Positions 260 to 9,452 of a stretch of DNA of 9,623 nucleotides are shown here, in pieces. How positions within the stretch are numbered: the stretch's first letter is position 1; each line of letters opens with the position of its first letter. Source of the DNA: Candidatus Tectimicrobiota bacterium (GTDB taxonomy: Bacteria > JACPSX01); contig JACPSX010000195.1 in NCBI GenBank assembly GCA_016193065.1, positions 1 to 9,623 of the forward strand. Reading direction: 5' to 3'. Made by a program: the position numbers and the translations under genes. The notes below the pieces were generated by a model, which worked only from the letters and a program-made list of their open reading frames with translations, was not told the origin of the DNA and made no database searches.

Positions 260-2179
260 GTGAAGCAGGTCATCCTGGGCACCGCAGGCCACATTGATCA
301 CGGCAAAACCTCGCTGATCAAGGCCCTGACGGGAATCGATACGGATCGCCTCAAGGAAGAGAAAGAGCGAGGAATCACGATTGATCTGGGCTTTGCCTTT
401 ATGGACCTGCCCGGGGGAGTTCAACTGGGGATCGTCGATGTCCCCGGCCACGAGCGCTTCGTGAAGAACATGCTGGCAGGTGTCGGGGGAATCGACTTCG
501 TCCTCCTGGTCATTGCGGCCGATGAAGGGGTGATGCCCCAGACCCGGGAGCATCTGGCCATCTGCGAGCTCCTGCGGATCAAGGACGGACTGGTGGCGCT
601 CACGAAAACCGACATGGTGGAGGAGAGCTGGCTCGATTTGGTCCGGGAGGACGTGAGCTTGTTTCTGGAGAAGACCTTCCTGGCGGGAAAGCCCATTGTC
701 CCGGTGTCGTCCAGGACGGGGCAGGGGCTCGAGGATCTGAAGGTCGAGATGGCCCGGATTGCAGCCAAGGTCCAGGAGAGGGAAGCCGCGGGGCCTTGCC
801 GTCTCCCCATTGACCGGGTCTTCACCATGCGGGGGTTCGGAACCGTCGTTACGGGGACAATGACGGCAGGCTCCGTGAATCTCGGAGAAGTCGTGGAGAT
901 CCTGCCGAAGGGGATTCAGGCCAAGGTCCGGGGACTGCAGGTTCACAACCGCTCCGTGGAGGTGGCTTCCGCCGGGCAGCGCGTGGCCGTGAACCTGCAA
1001 GGGATTGAGAAGGAGGAGTTGGAGAGGGGAGACGTTCTGGTGAGCCCCGGCTCCATGATCCCCGCTTCCATCCTGGAATCCCGGTTCTCACTTCTCGGCA
1101 GCAGCCCGCACCCCCTGAAAAACCGCAGCAGGGTCCGCTTTCACCTGGGGGCGAGCGAGCTGATTGCCCGCGTGGTCCTGCTCGACACGGGTGAACTGGC
1201 CCCTGGCTCCGAGGGCTTCGTGCGGATTCATCTGGAGGGTCAGGCCGTGGCCCGACCCGGGGACCGCTATGTGATTCGCAGCTTCTCTCCCGTGGAGACC
1301 ATCGGGGGCGGGGAAATCCTGGCCCTGGGCGCCGGCCGCAGGCGCCGTTCCTCTCCGGAGCTTCTCAGCGAAATGGAGGTCCTGCGCGCCGGAAGCAATC
1401 GGGAGCGGCTGCGGATCTACCTGCGGCAGGCAGGTCCCAACGGTCTTGCTCTTACGGAAATCGGAGCCCGGACCCCGTTTCATGGTCCCGCACTGCAGGC
1501 GCTCCTCGGAGAGCTTCAAGGTGCAGGGGAAATTCGGATCCTGGAGGACGCGGGGAGGCGCGTCCTGGAGAGCGGCGTGTGCGGGACAATTTCCGCGCAG
1601 ATCCTGACCCGGGTCGAAGACTATCACCGGCTGGCCCCGCTGAAACCGGGAATCCCGAAAGGTGAGCTTCGCACCCGGTTCCCCCAACTGGAGGACCGAA
1701 TCTTTCTCTGGTTTCTCGATTCCCTGGGCAGAGAGGGGAAGCTGGTGGTGGAAAGGGAAATTGTCCGGCTCCCCTCGCACCGGGTGACCCTGGCCGATGA
1801 CCTGCAGCAGGTGAAAGAGCGGATCGAAGAGGCTTTCCGGAAAGGGGGAGTGCAGCCTCCGAATCTGGAAGAGGTGTATCAGACCCTGGGGCTCAAGCAT
1901 CCTCGGGAGCGGGAACTCGTGAACGTCCTGGTCAACGAGAAGCGGCTGGTCCGGGTCAAGGAGCAAATCATCTTTCACAGCGAAGCGCTGCAGAGAGCCG
2001 AAGAGGCTCTGCTCGCGTATCTGAAAGAGCACCGGGAAATCACCGCAGCCCAGTTCCGCGACCTCCTGAACATTTCCCGCAAGCATGCCATCCCCTTGCT
2101 CGAATACTTCGACAACCGGCGCATCACCATGCGGGTTGGGGACAGCCGGGTCCTGCTCGGTAAGGGAAAGTCAGCGTAG
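260..2179 (+). CDS. selB: Selenocysteine-specific translation elongation factor SelB
   Basis: SelB is the GTPase that delivers Sec-tRNA(Sec) to ribosomes paused at UGA and binds the SECIS hairpin in the mRNA. The 639-residue product has the G1 loop AGHIDHGKT (9-17), the switch region RGITIDLGF (37-45), DVPGH (60-64) and TKTD (115-118). Beta-barrel domains follow, then from roughly residue 375 the tandem winged helices that bind SECIS RNA. The last of these carries the family-typical stretch [20 protein letters not shown] near the C-terminus. Length is close to known SelB proteins (about 615-635). The GTG start is supported by AAAGGA at 248-253, six bases upstream. It is the machinery needed to read the TGA in selD at the far end of the window. 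The minus-strand gene at 2207-2485 converges on it, with only 27 bases between stops. Confidence 0.96.
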
Positions 2180-2504: not shown

Positions 2505-3038
2505 TTAGTTGCGGACTATTCTCAAATGGGGCGGATTCTTTGAAGACACCCCCGTCCCTGCCGTTTGACTTATCTTCATGGGTTGCACCAACTTTTGATA
2601 TTCGACTATCTCTGCTTTAGTCGATATTGACATTACGTAAACGAAGCGTTGACTAAATTGTTGAGCCATTCGAATGTATAAGTCTTCTGCTCCCACTCTT
2701 GCGGCTACTGCGGTAACAATAAATTGATTTAAGCTCGTGCCATCTCTCTCGGCCATTCTAATGGCCTGTTGATGAAGGCTGCGAGGCAACCTCAGAGCGA
2801 TCTTGCCGCTAGCTTGGCTTGTTGAAGGAGGGGGGATCTCATGTCCTTGCTCTAGTTCGGCCTCTATCCAAGCCTTTGCCACCTCTTCTAGATTTTCAAA
2901 GGTTTCATCGGGCGTCTTTCCAACTGCGTAGCAGCCGGGGAATTCCAATATCTCTGCAGAAAATCCCCCTTCGCTTTCAGGGATGAGAATTCGCGCATAA
3001 GGTTCTCTTAGATATTCTTCAGGTGTCTTATCCACCAT
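2505..3038 (-). CDS. hicB: HicB family antitoxin with ribbon-helix-helix domain
   Basis: HicB binds and neutralises the HicA RNase and represses its own operon. The 177-residue protein has the HicB-like N-terminal domain at about 13-70 (YARILIPESEGGFSAEILEF, then PGCYAVGKTPDETFENL and an acidic helix AWIEAELEQG). A ribbon-helix-helix/Arc-like DNA-binding segment follows at about 77-118 (SGKIALRLPRSLHQQAI, then RDGTSLNQFIVTAVAARV). Residues 120-177 form an extra tail beyond the usual HicB end, of unknown role. The ATG overlaps the end of hicA by 11 bases, with AAGGAGGAAG just upstream, which is the usual hicA-hicB arrangement and suggests coupled translation. The likely operator is the palindrome at 3326-3347. 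Confidence 0.88.
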   Translation of the reverse strand: MVDKTPEEYLREPYARILIPESEGGFSAEILEFPGCYAVGKTPDETFENLEEVAKAWIEAELEQGHEIPPPSTSQASGKIALRLPRSLHQQAIRMAERDGTSLNQFIVTAVAARVGAEDLYIRMAQQFSQRFVYVMSISTKAEIVEYQKLVQPMKISQTAGTGVSSKNPPHLRIVRN

Positions 3039-3327
3039 TTTCTTCCTCCTTACCCAGAATTTTTTCCCAGGTATCGAGGTCCTGCTCCAGTTGGTTCAAA
3101 ATATTTCGAGCAGTTGATTTAGGCATCGAACCTGGATGGTTCGGGATGCTAAGTGAACGAGTTCCTGGAAGCGAACTGACGTACATAGGATGTTTTGTGC
3201 TCTTGGGCAGCCTACTTCTTCCTAGCGACTCTGCCAGACTTACCAGTTCCCTATTCCTAATGTTCGCTAGACGATTGCGTAATTCCTGTAGCTGCTGCGT
3301 GAGTTCGCCGATCTTTTTAAGGTCCAT
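3028..3327 (-). CDS. hicA: HicA family toxin (mRNA interferase)
   Basis: HicA toxins are small double-stranded-RNA-binding-fold ribonucleases that cut mRNA when not bound by HicB. From the ATG at 3327 the product is 99 residues. A charged, probably helical or coiled-coil stretch spans about 3-35. The HicA core follows: LPKSTKHPMYVSS with the presumed catalytic histidine H46, then SLSIPNHPGSMPKSTARNIL, matching the family pattern of strand, IPxH, K-S/G-T and the final helix. No ribosome site stands out before this ATG. An in-frame TTG at 3375 would add 16 residues and cannot be excluded. The ATG sits in the palindrome 3326-3347. It lies directly ahead of hicB, which it overlaps. The N-terminal helical extension is longer than in the shortest HicA proteins. 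Confidence 0.82.
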   Translation of the reverse strand: MDLKKIGELTQQLQELRNRLANIRNRELVSLAESLGRSRLPKSTKHPMYVSSLPGTRSLSIPNHPGSMPKSTARNILNQLEQDLDTWEKILGKEEENGG

Positions 3328-3347
3328 GATATCGTATCTGATATCAT
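3326..3347. promoter_or_regulatory. Palindromic operator over the hicA start codon
   Basis: Perfect 8-bp arms ATGATATC (3326-3333) and GATATCAT (3340-3347) flank a 6-base spacer. A third GATATC lies 22 bases further upstream of hicA at 3368-3373. The site spans the hicA ATG and lies downstream of the likely promoter, where a HicB ribbon-helix-helix dimer could block transcription. Binding by HicB is inferred from known HicAB autoregulation. Confidence 0.5.
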
Positions 3348-3401
3348 CTTGCCATAGAATCGGTCGGGATATCAAGAGACTTTAGGGCTTGCAATAGAAA
3401 A

Positions 3402-3554: not shown

Positions 3555-3941
3555 TCACCGCGCTTTATACCGCTCGTTGATGAAGTCGGTTAGCTTCTCA
3601 ATTTCTTCCCTGCTCAAGGATTTATTCTGTAGTGTCCTGAGCAGCACCGGGATTCCTGGAGTCTTGGCGGCGAAAGAAGCCACATCAGGGGGGAGAGCAC
3701 TCTTCTTATGGGAGACCGCCAGGTCGAACAACCGCTGGCGCTCCTGGGAGCTTTTGGGGAAGCCGAGGGTGTCAGCGATTCGAGTCAAGGTTTTGGGATC
3801 CTGAGGAGGGTGAATTCGTCCGTGTTCAATGTTGCTCAGGTTCGACGGTTGCATTTCGATGGCTTCGGCGAAGGCCCGAAGCCCGAATCCTGCCTTGAGA
3901 CGGGATTCCCTCAGAAACTCTCCAAACCTCTTCGCCGCCAT
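3555..3941 (-). CDS. XRE-family helix-turn-helix transcriptional regulator
   Basis: This 128-residue protein has a Cro/C1-type helix-turn-helix over about residues 7-62 (FGEFLRESRLKAGFGLRAFA, then MQPSNLSNIEHGR in the recognition region). A C-terminal segment (68-128, ERQRLFDLAVSHKK, LLRTLQNKSLSREEIEKL) is helical and probably serves for dimerisation or partner binding. The ATG at 3941 is preceded by GGGAGG at good spacing. The frame is open to a TTG at 3989, but that codon lies inside the operator, so it was not used. Similar regulators often accompany toxin or protease partners, but no such partner is seen directly downstream. The protein probably represses its own promoter through the palindrome 3989-4013. 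It may be an antitoxin-like orphan; its target is unknown. Confidence 0.88.
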   Translation of the reverse strand: MAAKRFGEFLRESRLKAGFGLRAFAEAIEMQPSNLSNIEHGRIHPPQDPKTLTRIADTLGFPKSSQERQRLFDLAVSHKKSALPPDVASFAAKTPGIPVLLRTLQNKSLSREEIEKLTDFINERYKAR

Positions 3942-4195: not shown

Positions 4196-4873
4196 GTGAA
4201 TTATCTCAGGCTTCATTCCTGGAACGTGAGCCCCAAAGAGGCAGTTCAGATCCAGCGCCGTCTCGCTCCTTTGGTCAAAACTTCCGGACGGAAGAAGACC
4301 CTCCATACCATCGCGGGGATCGACGTCTCCTATAACCGGAAGGACCCGCTCCTGCACGCCGGGGTCGTCGTCTTGAGCTGCGAGGATCTGGAAGTGCTGG
4401 AGGTGTCCTGCGCTTCCGGCACTGTGACCTTCCCTTACGTTCCAGGTCTTCTCTCTTTCCGAGAAATCCCCGTGGTCCTGAAAGCCTGGCGCAAGCTCAA
4501 AGTCCGCCCCGATTGCATCCTGTGCGACGGCCAGGGCCTGGCCCATCCGAGACGCTTCGGCCTGGCCTGCCATCTGGGGCTGGTCTTGGACCTGCCTTCC
4601 GTGGGCTGTGCCAAGAGCCGGCTGCTCGGTACGTATGAGGAACCCGGATTTTCGCGGGGCAGCCGCAGCCCTCTGTGGGACCGCGGCGAGGAAATCGGGG
4701 CCGTGCTGCGCACCCAGGACGGCGTTGCCCCTGTTTTTGTGTCCGTGGGGCACAAAATCACTCTGGATCGAGCTATCGATCTGGTGCTCTCCACCTGCCG
4801 CCGCTACCGCCTGCCGGAGCCCATCCGGGAGGCCCACCGGCGCGTCAACGAGCGGCGCAGGCTTGAGTTATAA
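4196..4873 (+). CDS. nfi: Endonuclease V (deoxyinosine 3' endonuclease)
   Basis: Endonuclease V nicks DNA at the second phosphodiester bond 3' of deoxyinosine and some other deaminated or mismatched bases, starting repair in the cytoplasm. The 225-residue product, counted from the GTG at 4196, has the metal-binding acidic residue in GIDVSY (D43), the strand FPYVPGLLSFRE (E90), CDGQGLAHPRR (D111, H117) and VGCAKSRLLGTYEEP. These equal the catalytic set of the family (D43, E89, D110, H116 in the Thermotoga enzyme). The C-terminal YRLPEPIREAHRRVNE is also typical. GGAG eight bases upstream supports this GTG; an upstream TTG at 4145 would add 17 unconserved residues. Length matches the family (about 220-230). 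It precedes the importer genes on the same strand by 96 bases, with no obvious link to selenium. Confidence 0.93.
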   Translation: MNYLRLHSWNVSPKEAVQIQRRLAPLVKTSGRKKTLHTIAGIDVSYNRKDPLLHAGVVVLSCEDLEVLEVSCASGTVTFPYVPGLLSFREIPVVLKAWRKLKVRPDCILCDGQGLAHPRRFGLACHLGLVLDLPSVGCAKSRLLGTYEEPGFSRGSRSPLWDRGEEIGAVLRTQDGVAPVFVSVGHKITLDRAIDLVLSTCRRYRLPEPIREAHRRVNERRRLEL

Positions 4874-4969: not shown

Positions 4970-5748
4970 ATGAGGGGGAAAATTGGCTTCTGTCTGATCG
5001 TTTTCTTGTTGAGTTTCCTGTTTGCGTCGCCGAGTTCTGCTGATACTCCCAAGGTCCTGCGGGTCTCCGCCATCCCTGATGAAGTTCCCAGCGAGCTGCA
5101 GCGCATCTATCAGCCCGTCGCCAAGTATCTGGAGGAGCGCGTCGGAATTCCGGTGAATTTCGTGCCGGTCACGGACTACGCGGCCACTGTGGAGGGCCTT
5201 GTCGCCGGCAAGCTGGATCTGGTCTGGTACGGAGGGTTCACCCACGTTCTGGCCCGGATCAAGAGCGGCGGCACCTCGTACGCCATTGCCATGCGTCAGG
5301 AGGATGCGGAGTTCCACAGCAAGTTCATCGCCAACGTCAACTCGGGGATTAATTCCCTGGCCGACTTGAAGGGGAGAAACTTCAGCTTCGGCGGGGTGGT
5401 ATCTACGTCGCCACGGCCAAGGTGGTGGAGTCGGGCTCCGTGGAGGCCGGGGCCTTAAACGAGCTTATTTGGGCCAAACTCGTGGAGACCAAGAAAGTGG
5501 ATACGAGCAAGGTCCGAGTGATCTGGACGACTCCGGCCTACGTGGACTACAACTGGACCGTACGGGGGGACCTGGACAAGAACTTGGTCGAGAAGCTGCG
5601 CGCGGCTCTTGTGCGCCTCGATTATAAGAATCCCAACGACCGCAAGCTCCTGGATCTGCATCGCACCAAGCGCTACATCCCCGTGACTTCCGAGTCGATT
5701 TTCGAGGGGATCGAGAAGGCGGGCAGATCTTCAGGTCTTATCAAATAG
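4970..5748 (+). pseudogene. Broken periplasmic binding protein of a PhnD-like (putative selenate) ABC importer
   Basis: The first part (from the ATG at 4970, after a G-rich ribosome site) has a signal peptide of about 24 residues (cleavage near SSA/D). The mature start follows with LRVSAIPDEVPSEL, YQPVAKYLEERVGIPV, FVPVTDYAATVEGL and LDLVWYGGFT, typical of phosphonate-type binding proteins and resembling the putative selenate subgroup. This frame stays family-like to FGGVVSTS (ending at 5410), then turns to unrelated residues and stops at 5458. The second part is in another frame: ATAKVVESGSVEAGALNE starts at 5410, then WTTPAYVDYNWTVRGDLD and the normal C-terminus, ending at 5748. About 30 residues usually found between STS and ATA are absent, so an internal deletion (length 3n+1) changed the frame. 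The whole encodes about 259 residues against the usual 290-310. It is either a true pseudogene or a sequence or assembly fault. Confidence 0.82.
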
Positions 5749-5764: not shown

Positions 5765-6595
5765 ATGGCGCCATCGATCGAGATTGAAAACCTGGTCAAA
5801 GTGTTTGACGGGCGGGTGGCGGCCCTGGACTCTCTGTCCCTCCAGGTGGAGGAAGGAGAGAAGGTCGCCTTAATCGGGCCCAGCGGAGCCGGAAAAACCA
5901 CCCTGTTCCGCCTCCTGAACTGCATCCTGACGCCGACGAGAGGAACCCTGCGCCTGCAGGGCTGCGATGTTACGCGGCTCTCGGAAAAGTCCCTGCGGGA
6001 GCTGCGCGCCCGCATCGGGACCATCTACCAGCAGCACAACCTGGTCCCTCAGCTCCGGGTCGCTCACAACGTCTTGGCCGGCAAACTAGGGCGGCTGTCG
6101 ACGGCCCGGGCTCTGTGGAATTTCTGGGACCCGCGCCCCGACGGCGATGTGGTGCGGGCCCTCACGCAGGTGGGAATTGCCGGAAAATACTGGGAGCGCA
6201 CCGCGGCTCTGAGCGGGGGGCAGCAGCAGCGGGTCGCCGTGGCCCGGGCCCTGGTGCAAAACCCGGACATTCTCCTGGCCGATGAGCCGGTCTCCTCCGT
6301 CGATCCCGCCCTCGCCCAGGAAATTGTCTCCCTTTTGGCGGACCTGGCCCAGGAGGGCGGAAAAACTCTGGTCGTGAGCCTGCACAGCGTTGAGCTGGCC
6401 CTGGCCCATTTTCCCCGCATTGTGGGGCTGCGGGGCGGGAAGCTCTATTTCGATCTTCCTCCGGATCAGATCACAGCCGAACTCCTAAGCGGCCTCTTCA
6501 CCCGCTGCGAGGCTGAACGCGGAGTTCCTGAAAGGGTTCTCCGTGGCGCCGTTTCCCCAGTCTTCCCCCTGGATTCTCCCTACGACAAAGCCTAA
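5765..6595 (+). CDS. Phosphonate-type (PhnC-like) ABC importer ATPase, putative selenate transport
   Basis: This cytoplasmic ATP-binding subunit powers the importer formed with the two permeases downstream. In the 276-residue protein I see Walker A GPSGAGKTT (38-46), the Q-loop IYQQHNLV (87-94), the signature LSGGQQQRV (149-157), Walker B ILLADEP (169-175), the D-loop SSVDP (177-181) and the switch histidine H207. It is therefore predicted to be catalytically intact. The general layout is PhnC-like. A role in selenium uptake is inferred from the neighbouring selD and from the type of binding protein. The ATG follows the binding-protein stop by 16 bases, with AGGAG at 5747-5751, a rather long 13 bases upstream. 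Its last 53 bases overlap the first permease gene. The extra C-terminal residues after about 250 look unstructured. Confidence 0.9.
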   Translation: MAPSIEIENLVKVFDGRVAALDSLSLQVEEGEKVALIGPSGAGKTTLFRLLNCILTPTRGTLRLQGCDVTRLSEKSLRELRARIGTIYQQHNLVPQLRVAHNVLAGKLGRLSTARALWNFWDPRPDGDVVRALTQVGIAGKYWERTAALSGGQQQRVAVARALVQNPDILLADEPVSSVDPALAQEIVSLLADLAQEGGKTLVVSLHSVELALAHFPRIVGLRGGKLYFDLPPDQITAELLSGLFTRCEAERGVPERVLRGAVSPVFPLDSPYDKA

Positions 6596-7415
6596 GAGCT
6601 CCCCTCTCTCTTTCACCGGGTGGTTTGTTCTTGTCGCGGCCCTGGTGGGAAGCTACCACCTGGCTGAGATCTCCCCCGGCAAGCTTCTTCACACCCAGGG
6701 CGGGAGCAGCCTCTGGGGCCTTCTCGCCGAATTTTTCCCGCCGGATCTTTCCGCGGAGTTTCTTTTGTACTTAATTGTTCCGACGGTAAAGACGATCCAG
6801 ATTTCTATCATGGGGACCGCTCTCGCCATCTTGATCGGCTTGCCCCTGGGAATTCTCGCCACCAGCACTCTCACGTTTGCCGGGATCCTCTTTGAAGGTG
6901 GAAGCCTGAGTCGCTCTTCCCGCCGCAGGCTGTGGATGCTTCCCTACCTCTTGGCCCGGGGAGGGCTCAGCTTGCTGCGTTCGATTCCCGAGATTGTCTG
7001 GGGCTTGCTGTTCGTGCGGATTGTGGGGCTGGGGCCCTTTGCCGGCGTTCTTGCCATTGGACTTGCCTACGGGGGGATGCTGGGAAAGGTGTACGCGGAA
7101 ATTCTGGAGGGGGTGAAGCAGAGCCCCGTGGAGGCGGTGCGGGCAGTGGGGGCCCGCAGATTCCCACTGGTGGTGTACGGGCTCTTTCCACAAGCCTTCC
7201 CGAACTTTGTGGCCTACAGTTTGTACCGCTGGGAGTGCGCGATCCGCTCCGCGGCGATCCTGGGTCTCGTGGGTGCCGGCGGGTTGGGACAGGAAATTGA
7301 AGTGTCCATGAAGATGCTGAACTATCCCCAAGCTCTGACGATCATCCTGGTCTCCTTCATTTTGGTGACCCTCGTGGATCGGGTCAGTTCCTGGATCCGG
7401 CGCACTTTGCTCTAA
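6543..7415 (+). CDS. Phosphonate-type (PhnE-like) ABC importer permease 1, putative selenate transport
   Basis: This is an inner-membrane channel subunit of 290 residues. Hydrophobic segments appear near 25-42, 86-116, 150-178, 208-226 and 262-282. The cytoplasmic coupling (EAA-type) loop is seen at about 184-220, with VEAVRAVGARRFPLVVYGLF. After it comes YRWECAIRSAAILGLVGAGG, the C-terminal signature of PhnE-type permeases. The GTG start at 6543 has GAAAGGG six bases upstream and overlaps the ATPase gene by 53 bases. No later ATG or GTG before the first membrane segment gives a better start. The GTG is thus the best choice, though the first 20 residues look poorly conserved. It is a paralogue of the next gene, with which it probably forms a heterodimer. 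Confidence 0.9.
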   Translation: MAPFPQSSPWILPTTKPKSSPLSFTGWFVLVAALVGSYHLAEISPGKLLHTQGGSSLWGLLAEFFPPDLSAEFLLYLIVPTVKTIQISIMGTALAILIGLPLGILATSTLTFAGILFEGGSLSRSSRRRLWMLPYLLARGGLSLLRSIPEIVWGLLFVRIVGLGPFAGVLAIGLAYGGMLGKVYAEILEGVKQSPVEAVRAVGARRFPLVVYGLFPQAFPNFVAYSLYRWECAIRSAAILGLVGAGGLGQEIEVSMKMLNYPQALTIILVSFILVTLVDRVSSWIRRTLL

Positions 7416-7427
7416 GGAGGTTTGCCG

Positions 7428-8288
7428 TTGACCGCCCCAAATGCTTCTCCCGTTCAATCGAGGCCCCTGTGGGGGGCCGGCAAGACGGTGGTCCTCCTGG
7501 TAGGCGCCGCGATTCTGTGGAGCTACCTGGGAACCGGATCGAACCTCTTGCTCCCGTTCCAGGCGGACGGGCGCCATCAAGTCGCCCTGTTTTTCAGCCA
7601 GCTCTTCCCTCCGAACCTCTCGGCCTCCCTCTTGACGCGTGCGCTCCGGGGGAGCTTGGAAACGCTGGCCGTCTCCATCATGGGGACTCTCCTGGCGGTC
7701 CTTATTGGGTTTCCTTTGGGGGCGCTGTCAGCCTACACGGTGATGGGAAATCGGCGCTTTTCCGAGGCGGAAGGCTCCTCTGCGGTCGCGCGTCTGTGGC
7801 GCCGCTTGATTTACGATGGCTCCACTCTCCTGCTGAACTTCCTGCGCTCGGTGCCGGAGCTCTTCTGGGCCCTGATCTTTATCGTTGCCGTGGGGCTGGG
7901 ACCTTTTCCAGGGGTCCTGGCCCTGGGATTTCACACCGGGGGAGTTCTGGGAAAGCTTTATTCAGAGAGCCTGGAGGCCCTGGATTCTCGACCTCTGGAA
8001 GCCCTCCAGGCGACTGGGGCGAGCACGTTGAAAGTTTTTCTTTTCGGCATGGTTCCCCTGGCGCTTCCCCAGCTCTTGTCCTATACGCTCTATCGCTGGG
8101 AGGTGAATATCCGGACCGCCGCGGTTTTGGGCGTCGTCGGCGCGGGGGGATTGGGCCAGGACATTCTGGTGGCCATGGGGCTCCTGCACTATCAAGACCT
8201 GGCGACTTTTCTCATCGCCACGCTCGCCATTGTCATTGCCGTCGATTTTCTTAGCACTTTTTTGCGCTTGCGCCTGATCCCGTCCTGA
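7428..8288 (+). CDS. Phosphonate-type (PhnE-like) ABC importer permease 2, putative selenate transport
   Basis: The second channel subunit has 286 residues. Hydrophobic segments lie near 20-44, 79-103, 144-169, 200-222 and 258-280. The coupling loop reads LEALQATGASTLKVFLFGMV (about 190-209), followed by YRWEVNIRTAAVLGVVGAGG (222-241), closely parallel to permease 1. I chose TTG at 7428 because AAGGAGG (7414-7420) lies seven bases before it; a TTG at 7422 is only one base from that site. The Shine-Dalgarno sequence overlaps the stop codon of permease 1, so translation is probably coupled. Two distinct permeases per cluster occur in several phosphonate-type importers. selD follows after 117 bases, probably in the same transcript since no clear terminator lies between. 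Confidence 0.9.
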   Translation: MTAPNASPVQSRPLWGAGKTVVLLVGAAILWSYLGTGSNLLLPFQADGRHQVALFFSQLFPPNLSASLLTRALRGSLETLAVSIMGTLLAVLIGFPLGALSAYTVMGNRRFSEAEGSSAVARLWRRLIYDGSTLLLNFLRSVPELFWALIFIVAVGLGPFPGVLALGFHTGGVLGKLYSESLEALDSRPLEALQATGASTLKVFLFGMVPLALPQLLSYTLYRWEVNIRTAAVLGVVGAGGLGQDILVAMGLLHYQDLATFLIATLAIVIAVDFLSTFLRLRLIPS

Positions 8289-8405: not shown

Positions 8406-9452
8406 ATGGCCGAGAGCAATTACCGTCTTACGGAAACGGTGCGCTGCGCGGGTTGAGCAGGCAAACTGGGTCCGGGGGACCTGGAAGCCGCCGTTTCTTC
8501 GTTGCACCCTAAGAGAGATGCGAAGCTCCTGGTTGGAATGGAGACCGGGGACGATGCCGGAGTCTACCAGGTGGCCGATAGCCTGGCCCTGGTGCAGACT
8601 CTCGACTTTATCACTCCGATTGTCGATGATCCCTACGATTACGGCCGGATTGCCGCCGCCAATTCGTTGAGCGACGTCTACGCCATGGGGGGAAAGCCGG
8701 TCACCGCCATGAACATTGTCGGATTCCCCCAGGACAGTCTCCCCGCAGAGGTGCTGAGGGATCTCCTGCGCGGGGGGCTGGAGAAGATCGAGGAATCGGG
8801 AGCCACGCTGGTGGGCGGGCACACGGTGGACGATGTGGAGTTCAAGTACGGCCTCTCGGTCACCGGGGTCATCGATCCCCACCACGTGGTGCGAAATGTC
8901 GGAGCCCGGCCGGGAGACCGCATGGTTCTCACCAAGCCTCTGGGAATGGGGATTATCACCACGGCCAACAAGCGCCGCAAAGCGCCGGCGGAACTTGTCC
9001 GGAGAGCCGTAGAGGTGATGGCCGCGTTGAACCGCGCGGCCAGCGAGGTCATGGTGGAAGTGGGCGCCCATGCGGCTACGGATGTGACGGGGTTCGGCCT
9101 TCTGGGTCACGCTCTCATCATGGCTCGGGGGAGCGGTGTCGGCATAGCCTTTCAGGCCAGTGCCATTCCCTATCTCAAGGGGGCTCTGGAACTCTCGGTG
9201 CAAAACCTGATCCCAGGAGGAAGCTTTCGAAACCGGGAGTTTGTCGGAGAGAAGGCGCAGGTCGATCCGAGCATCCCCGAGGCTCTGGCCATGATCTTTT
9301 TTGACGCCCAGACTTCCGGGGGATTGCTGATTGCGGTGGCTCCCGAGAAGGTGGAGATGCTGCTGGAGCGGTTGCGAAAATCCGGAGTTTCCACGGCCGC
9401 CGTCATCGGCCGCGTGATTGAAGGGGAGCCCAGGTTGATCCTGGAACCGTGA
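8406..9452 (+). CDS. selD: Selenophosphate synthetase SelD, a selenoprotein with Sec at residue 17
   Basis: SelD makes selenophosphate from selenide and ATP, the selenium donor for Sec-tRNA(Sec). From the ATG at 8406, with GGAAGGGGG nine bases upstream, the product has 348 residues if the TGA at 8454-8456 is read as selenocysteine. The N-terminus then reads RCAG-U-AGKLGPGDL, with U17 and K20 aligning to the catalytic Cys17 and Lys20 of E. coli SelD. E. coli Cys19 is Gly here. METGDDAGVY (45-54), the metal/ATP-binding QTLDFITPIVDDPYDYGRIA region, NSLSDVYAMGGKP (86-98) and GGHTVDD are typical. The C-terminal part has TDVTGFGLLGH and DAQTSGGLLIAV. Conventional calling would stop at the TGA or begin at 8502, losing the active site. 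The codon is followed by a SECIS-like hairpin. Its product and SelB from this window would support its own translation. Confidence 0.95.
8466..8484 (+). promoter_or_regulatory. Bacterial SECIS element in selD mRNA
   Basis: Directly after the in-frame TGA (8454-8456), bases 8466-8473 pair with 8477-8484. These are CTGGGTCC and GGACCTGG, with eight pairs including two G-U, and the apical loop is GGG. The loop begins 17 bases after the TGA, within the roughly 16-37 bases described for bacterial SECIS elements, and has G in its first positions as required for SelB binding. The hairpin lies in coding sequence, as is normal in bacteria. Confidence 0.8.

Follow-up and report, generated by a model that had tools for sequence, protein, structure and literature searches.

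In many species, selenophosphate synthetase (SelD or SPS) is made as a selenoprotein, and in prokaryotes Cys forms are common (PMC4561486). Among bacterial selenoprotein families, SelD ranks in the top two by abundance (PMC1794560). Sec-containing SelD has long been known, and the gene described here, selD1, is almost certainly another such gene. Of more interest are the occurrence of two Sec-selD genes in one assembly, the different neighbours of these genes (an ABC transporter operon versus a TauE/SafE-type permease), and the two preferred offsets of their SECIS hairpins (+17 and +33). SelD1 resembles the described Sec-SelD/SPS2 proteins in its family match, catalytic UGA, downstream hairpin within the gene and accompanying SelB, and it is 50-57% identical to UGA-containing SelD proteins of several phyla. 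Nothing essential differs in SelD1 itself; the host assembly yielded neither selA nor selC. SelD1 has Gly (GUAGK) in place of the second Cys of the E. coli-type GCGCK motif.

The window, by which we mean the whole stretch of 9,623 nucleotides that was analysed, is contig C175 of a draft assembly (G000; 2.9 Mb in 294 contigs, 86% complete) from an organism with no relative below the domain level among the genomes searched. As in selA-selB-selD-selC clusters such as that of locus L132 (genome G054), selB precedes selD on the same strand, but in the window the two genes are separated by about 6.2 kb that includes an ABC transporter, and the contig lacks selA and selC. The features discussed below are as follows.

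260..2179, + strand: selB, Sec-specific elongation factor, 639 aa, with C-terminal SelB winged-helix domains (TIGR00475, 373 bits; PF09106, PF09107)
4970..5748, + strand: putative selenate/phosphonate-type ABC substrate-binding protein gene, broken (TIGR04553 in two halves, 1-123 and 148-266)
5765..6595, + strand: ABC transporter ATPase (PhnC-like), same operon (TIGR02315, 252 bits, just below its cut-off)
6543..7415, + strand: ABC transporter permease 1 (PhnE-like; TIGR01097, 231 bits)
7422..8288, + strand: ABC transporter permease 2 (PhnE-like; TIGR01097, 239 bits)
8406..9452, + strand: selD1, selenophosphate synthetase (selenide, water dikinase), 348 aa with predicted UGA-encoded Sec17 (TIGR00476)
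8454..8456, + strand: in-frame TGA, codon 17, at the catalytic Cys/Sec position (RCAG-U-AGKLGPGDL; from the reading frame and homologue alignment)
8466..8484, + strand: bacterial SECIS-like hairpin, 8-bp stem, GGG loop at 8474-8476 (from folding and homologue comparison)

An in-frame UGA at the catalytic position of SelD1

Translation of the selD1 frame from the ATG at 8406 revealed the TGA of codon 17 as the sole internal stop, followed by 331 open codons and a TGA stop at 9450-9452. With Cys at residue 17, the protein matched the TIGR00476 selD profile at 388 bits (cut-off 125) over residues 7-315, and the shorter form that begins with TTG at 8502, from which the N-terminus is missing, scored 362 bits. 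The higher score obtained with the N-terminus indicates that this part of the protein is family-like, and the claim of the first-pass annotation that the frame resembles the family on both sides of the TGA is borne out by a match that spans it. The frame and the homologue alignment together confirmed the placement of the TGA at the catalytic residue of SelD, and the Lys that follows the Cys or Sec in this family (G-U/C-x-x-K) is present. It had also been anticipated that ordinary gene prediction would truncate selD at 8502, and the ORF caller indeed placed the start there. The annotation is corrected accordingly, as the automatic call would drop 32 residues of SelD1, the catalytic one among them.

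For comparison, 80 loci from one contig scan together with 59 whole genomes yielded 114 aligned selD sites, a sample that includes the selD1 of the window and some loci that were fetched twice. The catalytic codon was TGA at 99 of these sites and TGC or TGT at the other 15, and no further codon occurred. The frequency of TGA at related sites argues that Sec-SelD, as predicted from sequence, is common across phyla. The close homologues of selD1 carry TGA at the catalytic codon, and the closest of them (L090/L130, 57% identical) has a hairpin at the same offset as that of selD1.

A SECIS-like hairpin at a preferred distance from the UGA

Bacterial SECIS elements are stem-loops located soon after the UGA, with a G within the first two bases of the loop and a spacing of about 16-37 nt. 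The hairpin at 8466-8484 (CUGGGUCC-GGG-GGACCUGG) fits this description, as it has eight pairs, two of them G-U, and a GGG loop at an offset of 17 nt from the TGA. The hairpin alone has a folding energy of -9.7 kcal/mol. As a single sequence it shows no excess over chance in dinucleotide shuffles (folding z of only -0.39), and it is not significant by itself against a synonymous-codon shuffle (p 0.086).

The homologues provide the stronger evidence. Hairpins with a stem of at least 6 bp and a 3-nt G loop were counted in 91 distinct TGA selD sequences and 15 Cys loci. In the TGA sequences, qualifying hairpins occurred only at offsets of 17 nt (20 sequences), 20 nt (9), 27 nt (7) and 33 nt (38) after the UGA, with some sequences having two, and at these offsets none of the 15 Cys loci had one. 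A synonymous-codon null (300 draws, pooled codon usage) gave means of 1.8, 1.4, 4.0 and 3.9 at offsets 17, 20, 27 and 33, with maxima of 6, 5, 9 and 9, such that the observed counts at 17, 20 and 33 lie above every draw and the count at 27 does not; the sequences are related, and the counts therefore do not represent independent events. By form, the 8466-8484 hairpin is a good candidate bacterial SECIS that is unconvincing alone and significant across homologues. Thus, the stem and loop proposed by the first-pass annotation are present at a spacing that is enriched among homologues, but the single hairpin does not carry the claim.

Most selD hairpins fall at one of two offsets from the UGA, 17 or 33 nt, and a smaller group stands at 20 nt. 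Each of the two selD paralogues of the host assembly has one of the main offsets (selD1 +17, selD2 +33). Two fixed distances for the SelD SECIS could sharpen the prediction of selenoproteins.

Further UGA-containing genes in the host assembly

The search of the assembly revealed a second selD and a set of thiol-redox genes with in-frame UGA codons.

L129 3855-5742 (contig C120): selD2 locus with an upstream TauE/SafE-type permease
L144-L150 (contigs C184, C245, C145, C254, C287, C239 and C104): seven UGA-containing peroxiredoxin/thioredoxin-like genes

SelD2 is 50% identical to SelD1, has an in-frame UGA in the motif GAGUGCK and is followed by a 9-bp hairpin at offset 33; its contig is assigned to the same organism by binning only, and contamination of the bin is possible. 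Among the loci fetched, SelD2 is closest to a SelD of Methylomirabilis (62.6%). Seven of the 11 AhpC/TSA-family matches in the assembly contain an in-frame TGA, which in translation falls at the active-site Cys in all seven (TWUPSC, HTUDSC, TWUHSC, FGUIFC, TGUPYC, LTUPYC and FTGGUT), and each has a G-loop hairpin of 7-8 pairs located 17-27 nt downstream. The molybdopterin oxidoreductases of the assembly had no in-frame TGA, and hence no Sec formate dehydrogenase was found; the single CMD/AhpD match likewise lacks a TGA. The assembly thus contains further selenoprotein candidates, namely the seven thiol-redox genes and the second UGA-containing selD. Taken with their SECIS-like hairpins, these genes make it very probable that the organism decodes Sec; by its predicted gene content it is selenoprotein-rich. 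This adds a selenoprotein-rich draft genome whose lineage shares no more than its domain with the genomes searched.

Sec machinery and the reading of the selD1 UGA

SelB is encoded in the window, as the first-pass annotation stated, and the same annotation held that a genome lacking selA and selC would refute a Sec-containing SelD. In the 86% complete, 294-contig assembly, neither selA (PF03841) nor selC (RF01852) was found, and SepSecS was not found there either. The eight best-scoring tRNA-Sec candidates from RF01852 were identified by ARAGORN as ordinary Trp, Ser, Leu, Tyr, Gly and Thr tRNAs, and a search of the assembly with a tRNA-Sec loop pattern did not find selC. A custom model built from seven tRNA-Sec genes reached no more than 43 bits in the assembly, versus 81-96 bits in three control genomes. 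YbbB (TIGR03167), which marks the selenouridine trait, had no match in the incomplete assembly, and an Rfam scan of the window returned chance matches only. No recognisable part of selA or selC lies in the 259 nt upstream of selB or in the 171 nt downstream of selD1, which leaves contig ends that cut exactly at these genes as a possibility only.

The genome search therefore had a mixed outcome, with selA and selC missing from the draft and further genes with active-site UGA codons present. In form the objection from their absence applies, yet we judge missing sequence to be a better explanation than a stop codon, given the other selenoprotein genes and the fragmented state of the draft. Most likely, the missing selA and selC are assembly gaps. 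Since the two genes cluster with selB and selD in some relatives, a single gap could have deprived the draft of two or more of these genes.

One alternative is that selA and selC have truly been lost and that the UGA terminates translation, making selD1, and perhaps the transporter beside it, a dying gene. The failure to find selA, selC and SepSecS agrees with this, and the broken binding-protein gene of the same operon could hint at a decaying locus. Against it, SelB is full length, selD1 has no other lesion and the assembly is an 86% complete draft in 294 contigs; moreover, nine genes of the assembly have a UGA exactly at the active-site Cys together with a hairpin at SECIS spacing, a pattern that decay cannot produce. 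We regard such a loss as very unlikely. A still smaller chance is given to a sequencing or assembly error that turned a TGC or TGT at 8454 into TGA in an ordinary Cys-SelD gene. Cys forms do occur in the family, as the 15 sites above attest, but the hairpin is present and stands at a SECIS offset used by TGA homologues only, the close homologues have TGA, and the assembly has eight further UGA genes. It is equally improbable that UGA has been generally reassigned as a sense codon (e.g., Trp or Gly) in this organism. While the in-frame TGAs in several genes might suggest so, the frames of the 639-codon selB, the ATPase and the permeases are open under table 11 with no internal TGA, selD1 itself terminates at TGA, and the internal TGAs in the matched domains occur at active-site Cys positions only. 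Neither decay nor general reassignment can account for the confinement of UGA to catalytic thiols.

The explanation that we favour with near certainty is that the selD1 UGA is read as Sec17, and that selA and selC are present in the organism and missing from the draft. The UGA at 8454 would be decoded by SelB with Sec-tRNA(Sec), helped by the hairpin at 8466-8484, to give a 348-residue SelD1 predicted to convert selenide and ATP to selenophosphate for Sec synthesis. The claim of the first-pass annotation that selD is a selenoprotein gene is thus supported by where the TGA falls in the gene, the restriction of homologues to TGA or Cys codons, the enrichment of the hairpin, SelB and the eight other genes with an active-site UGA. 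The feedback that it proposed, in which SelD would need selenium for its own synthesis, would follow logically from Sec-SelD in general.

Neighbouring transporters and other genes

The genes upstream of selD1 are ordered binding protein-ATPase-permease-permease, and 117 bp separate the end of permease 2 from selD1, which is probably cotranscribed with this PhnCDE-like transporter. The operon shares gene content and order with TIGR04553/phosphonate PhnCDE transporters, but its binding-protein gene is broken and its substrate is putative. The halves of that gene lie in different frames, and model positions 124-147 (about 24) are missing near 5398-5416, which may be a genuine lesion or an error of assembly. 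Genome G047 has an intact orthologous operon with the same order, at a distance of about 130 kb from the selD gene there. The ABC genes near selD in locus L010 encode, by appearance, an amino-acid-type transporter and do not correspond to the operon of the window. The binding protein resembles TIGR04553, a model named "putative selenate ABC transporter substrate-binding protein", and the transporter may import a selenium oxyanion.

The gene preceding selD2 is named a TauE/SafE-type permease from its sequence character, and in eight other loci a homologue of this permease immediately precedes selD. One tentative and rather unlikely idea is that the two Sec-SelD proteins, each coupled to its own transporter (the PhnCDE-like importer and the TauE/SafE permease), represent two dedicated routes of selenium supply. 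If so, the ABC system would be devoted to selenium import; a 2022 review described dedicated selenium importers as unidentified (PMC9312934). A search of the literature for phosphonate-type transporters linked to selD returned nothing relevant. The links between transporters and selD are leads, and the operon beside selD1 is a candidate for selenium uptake that can be put to the test.

Between selB and the ABC operon, the window also encodes a HicB-like antitoxin-type gene (2505-3038, - strand) with a small ORF beside it (3028-3375, - strand) and a helix-turn-helix regulator (3555-3941, - strand), and Endonuclease V (nfi, 4202-4873) lies upstream of the operon.
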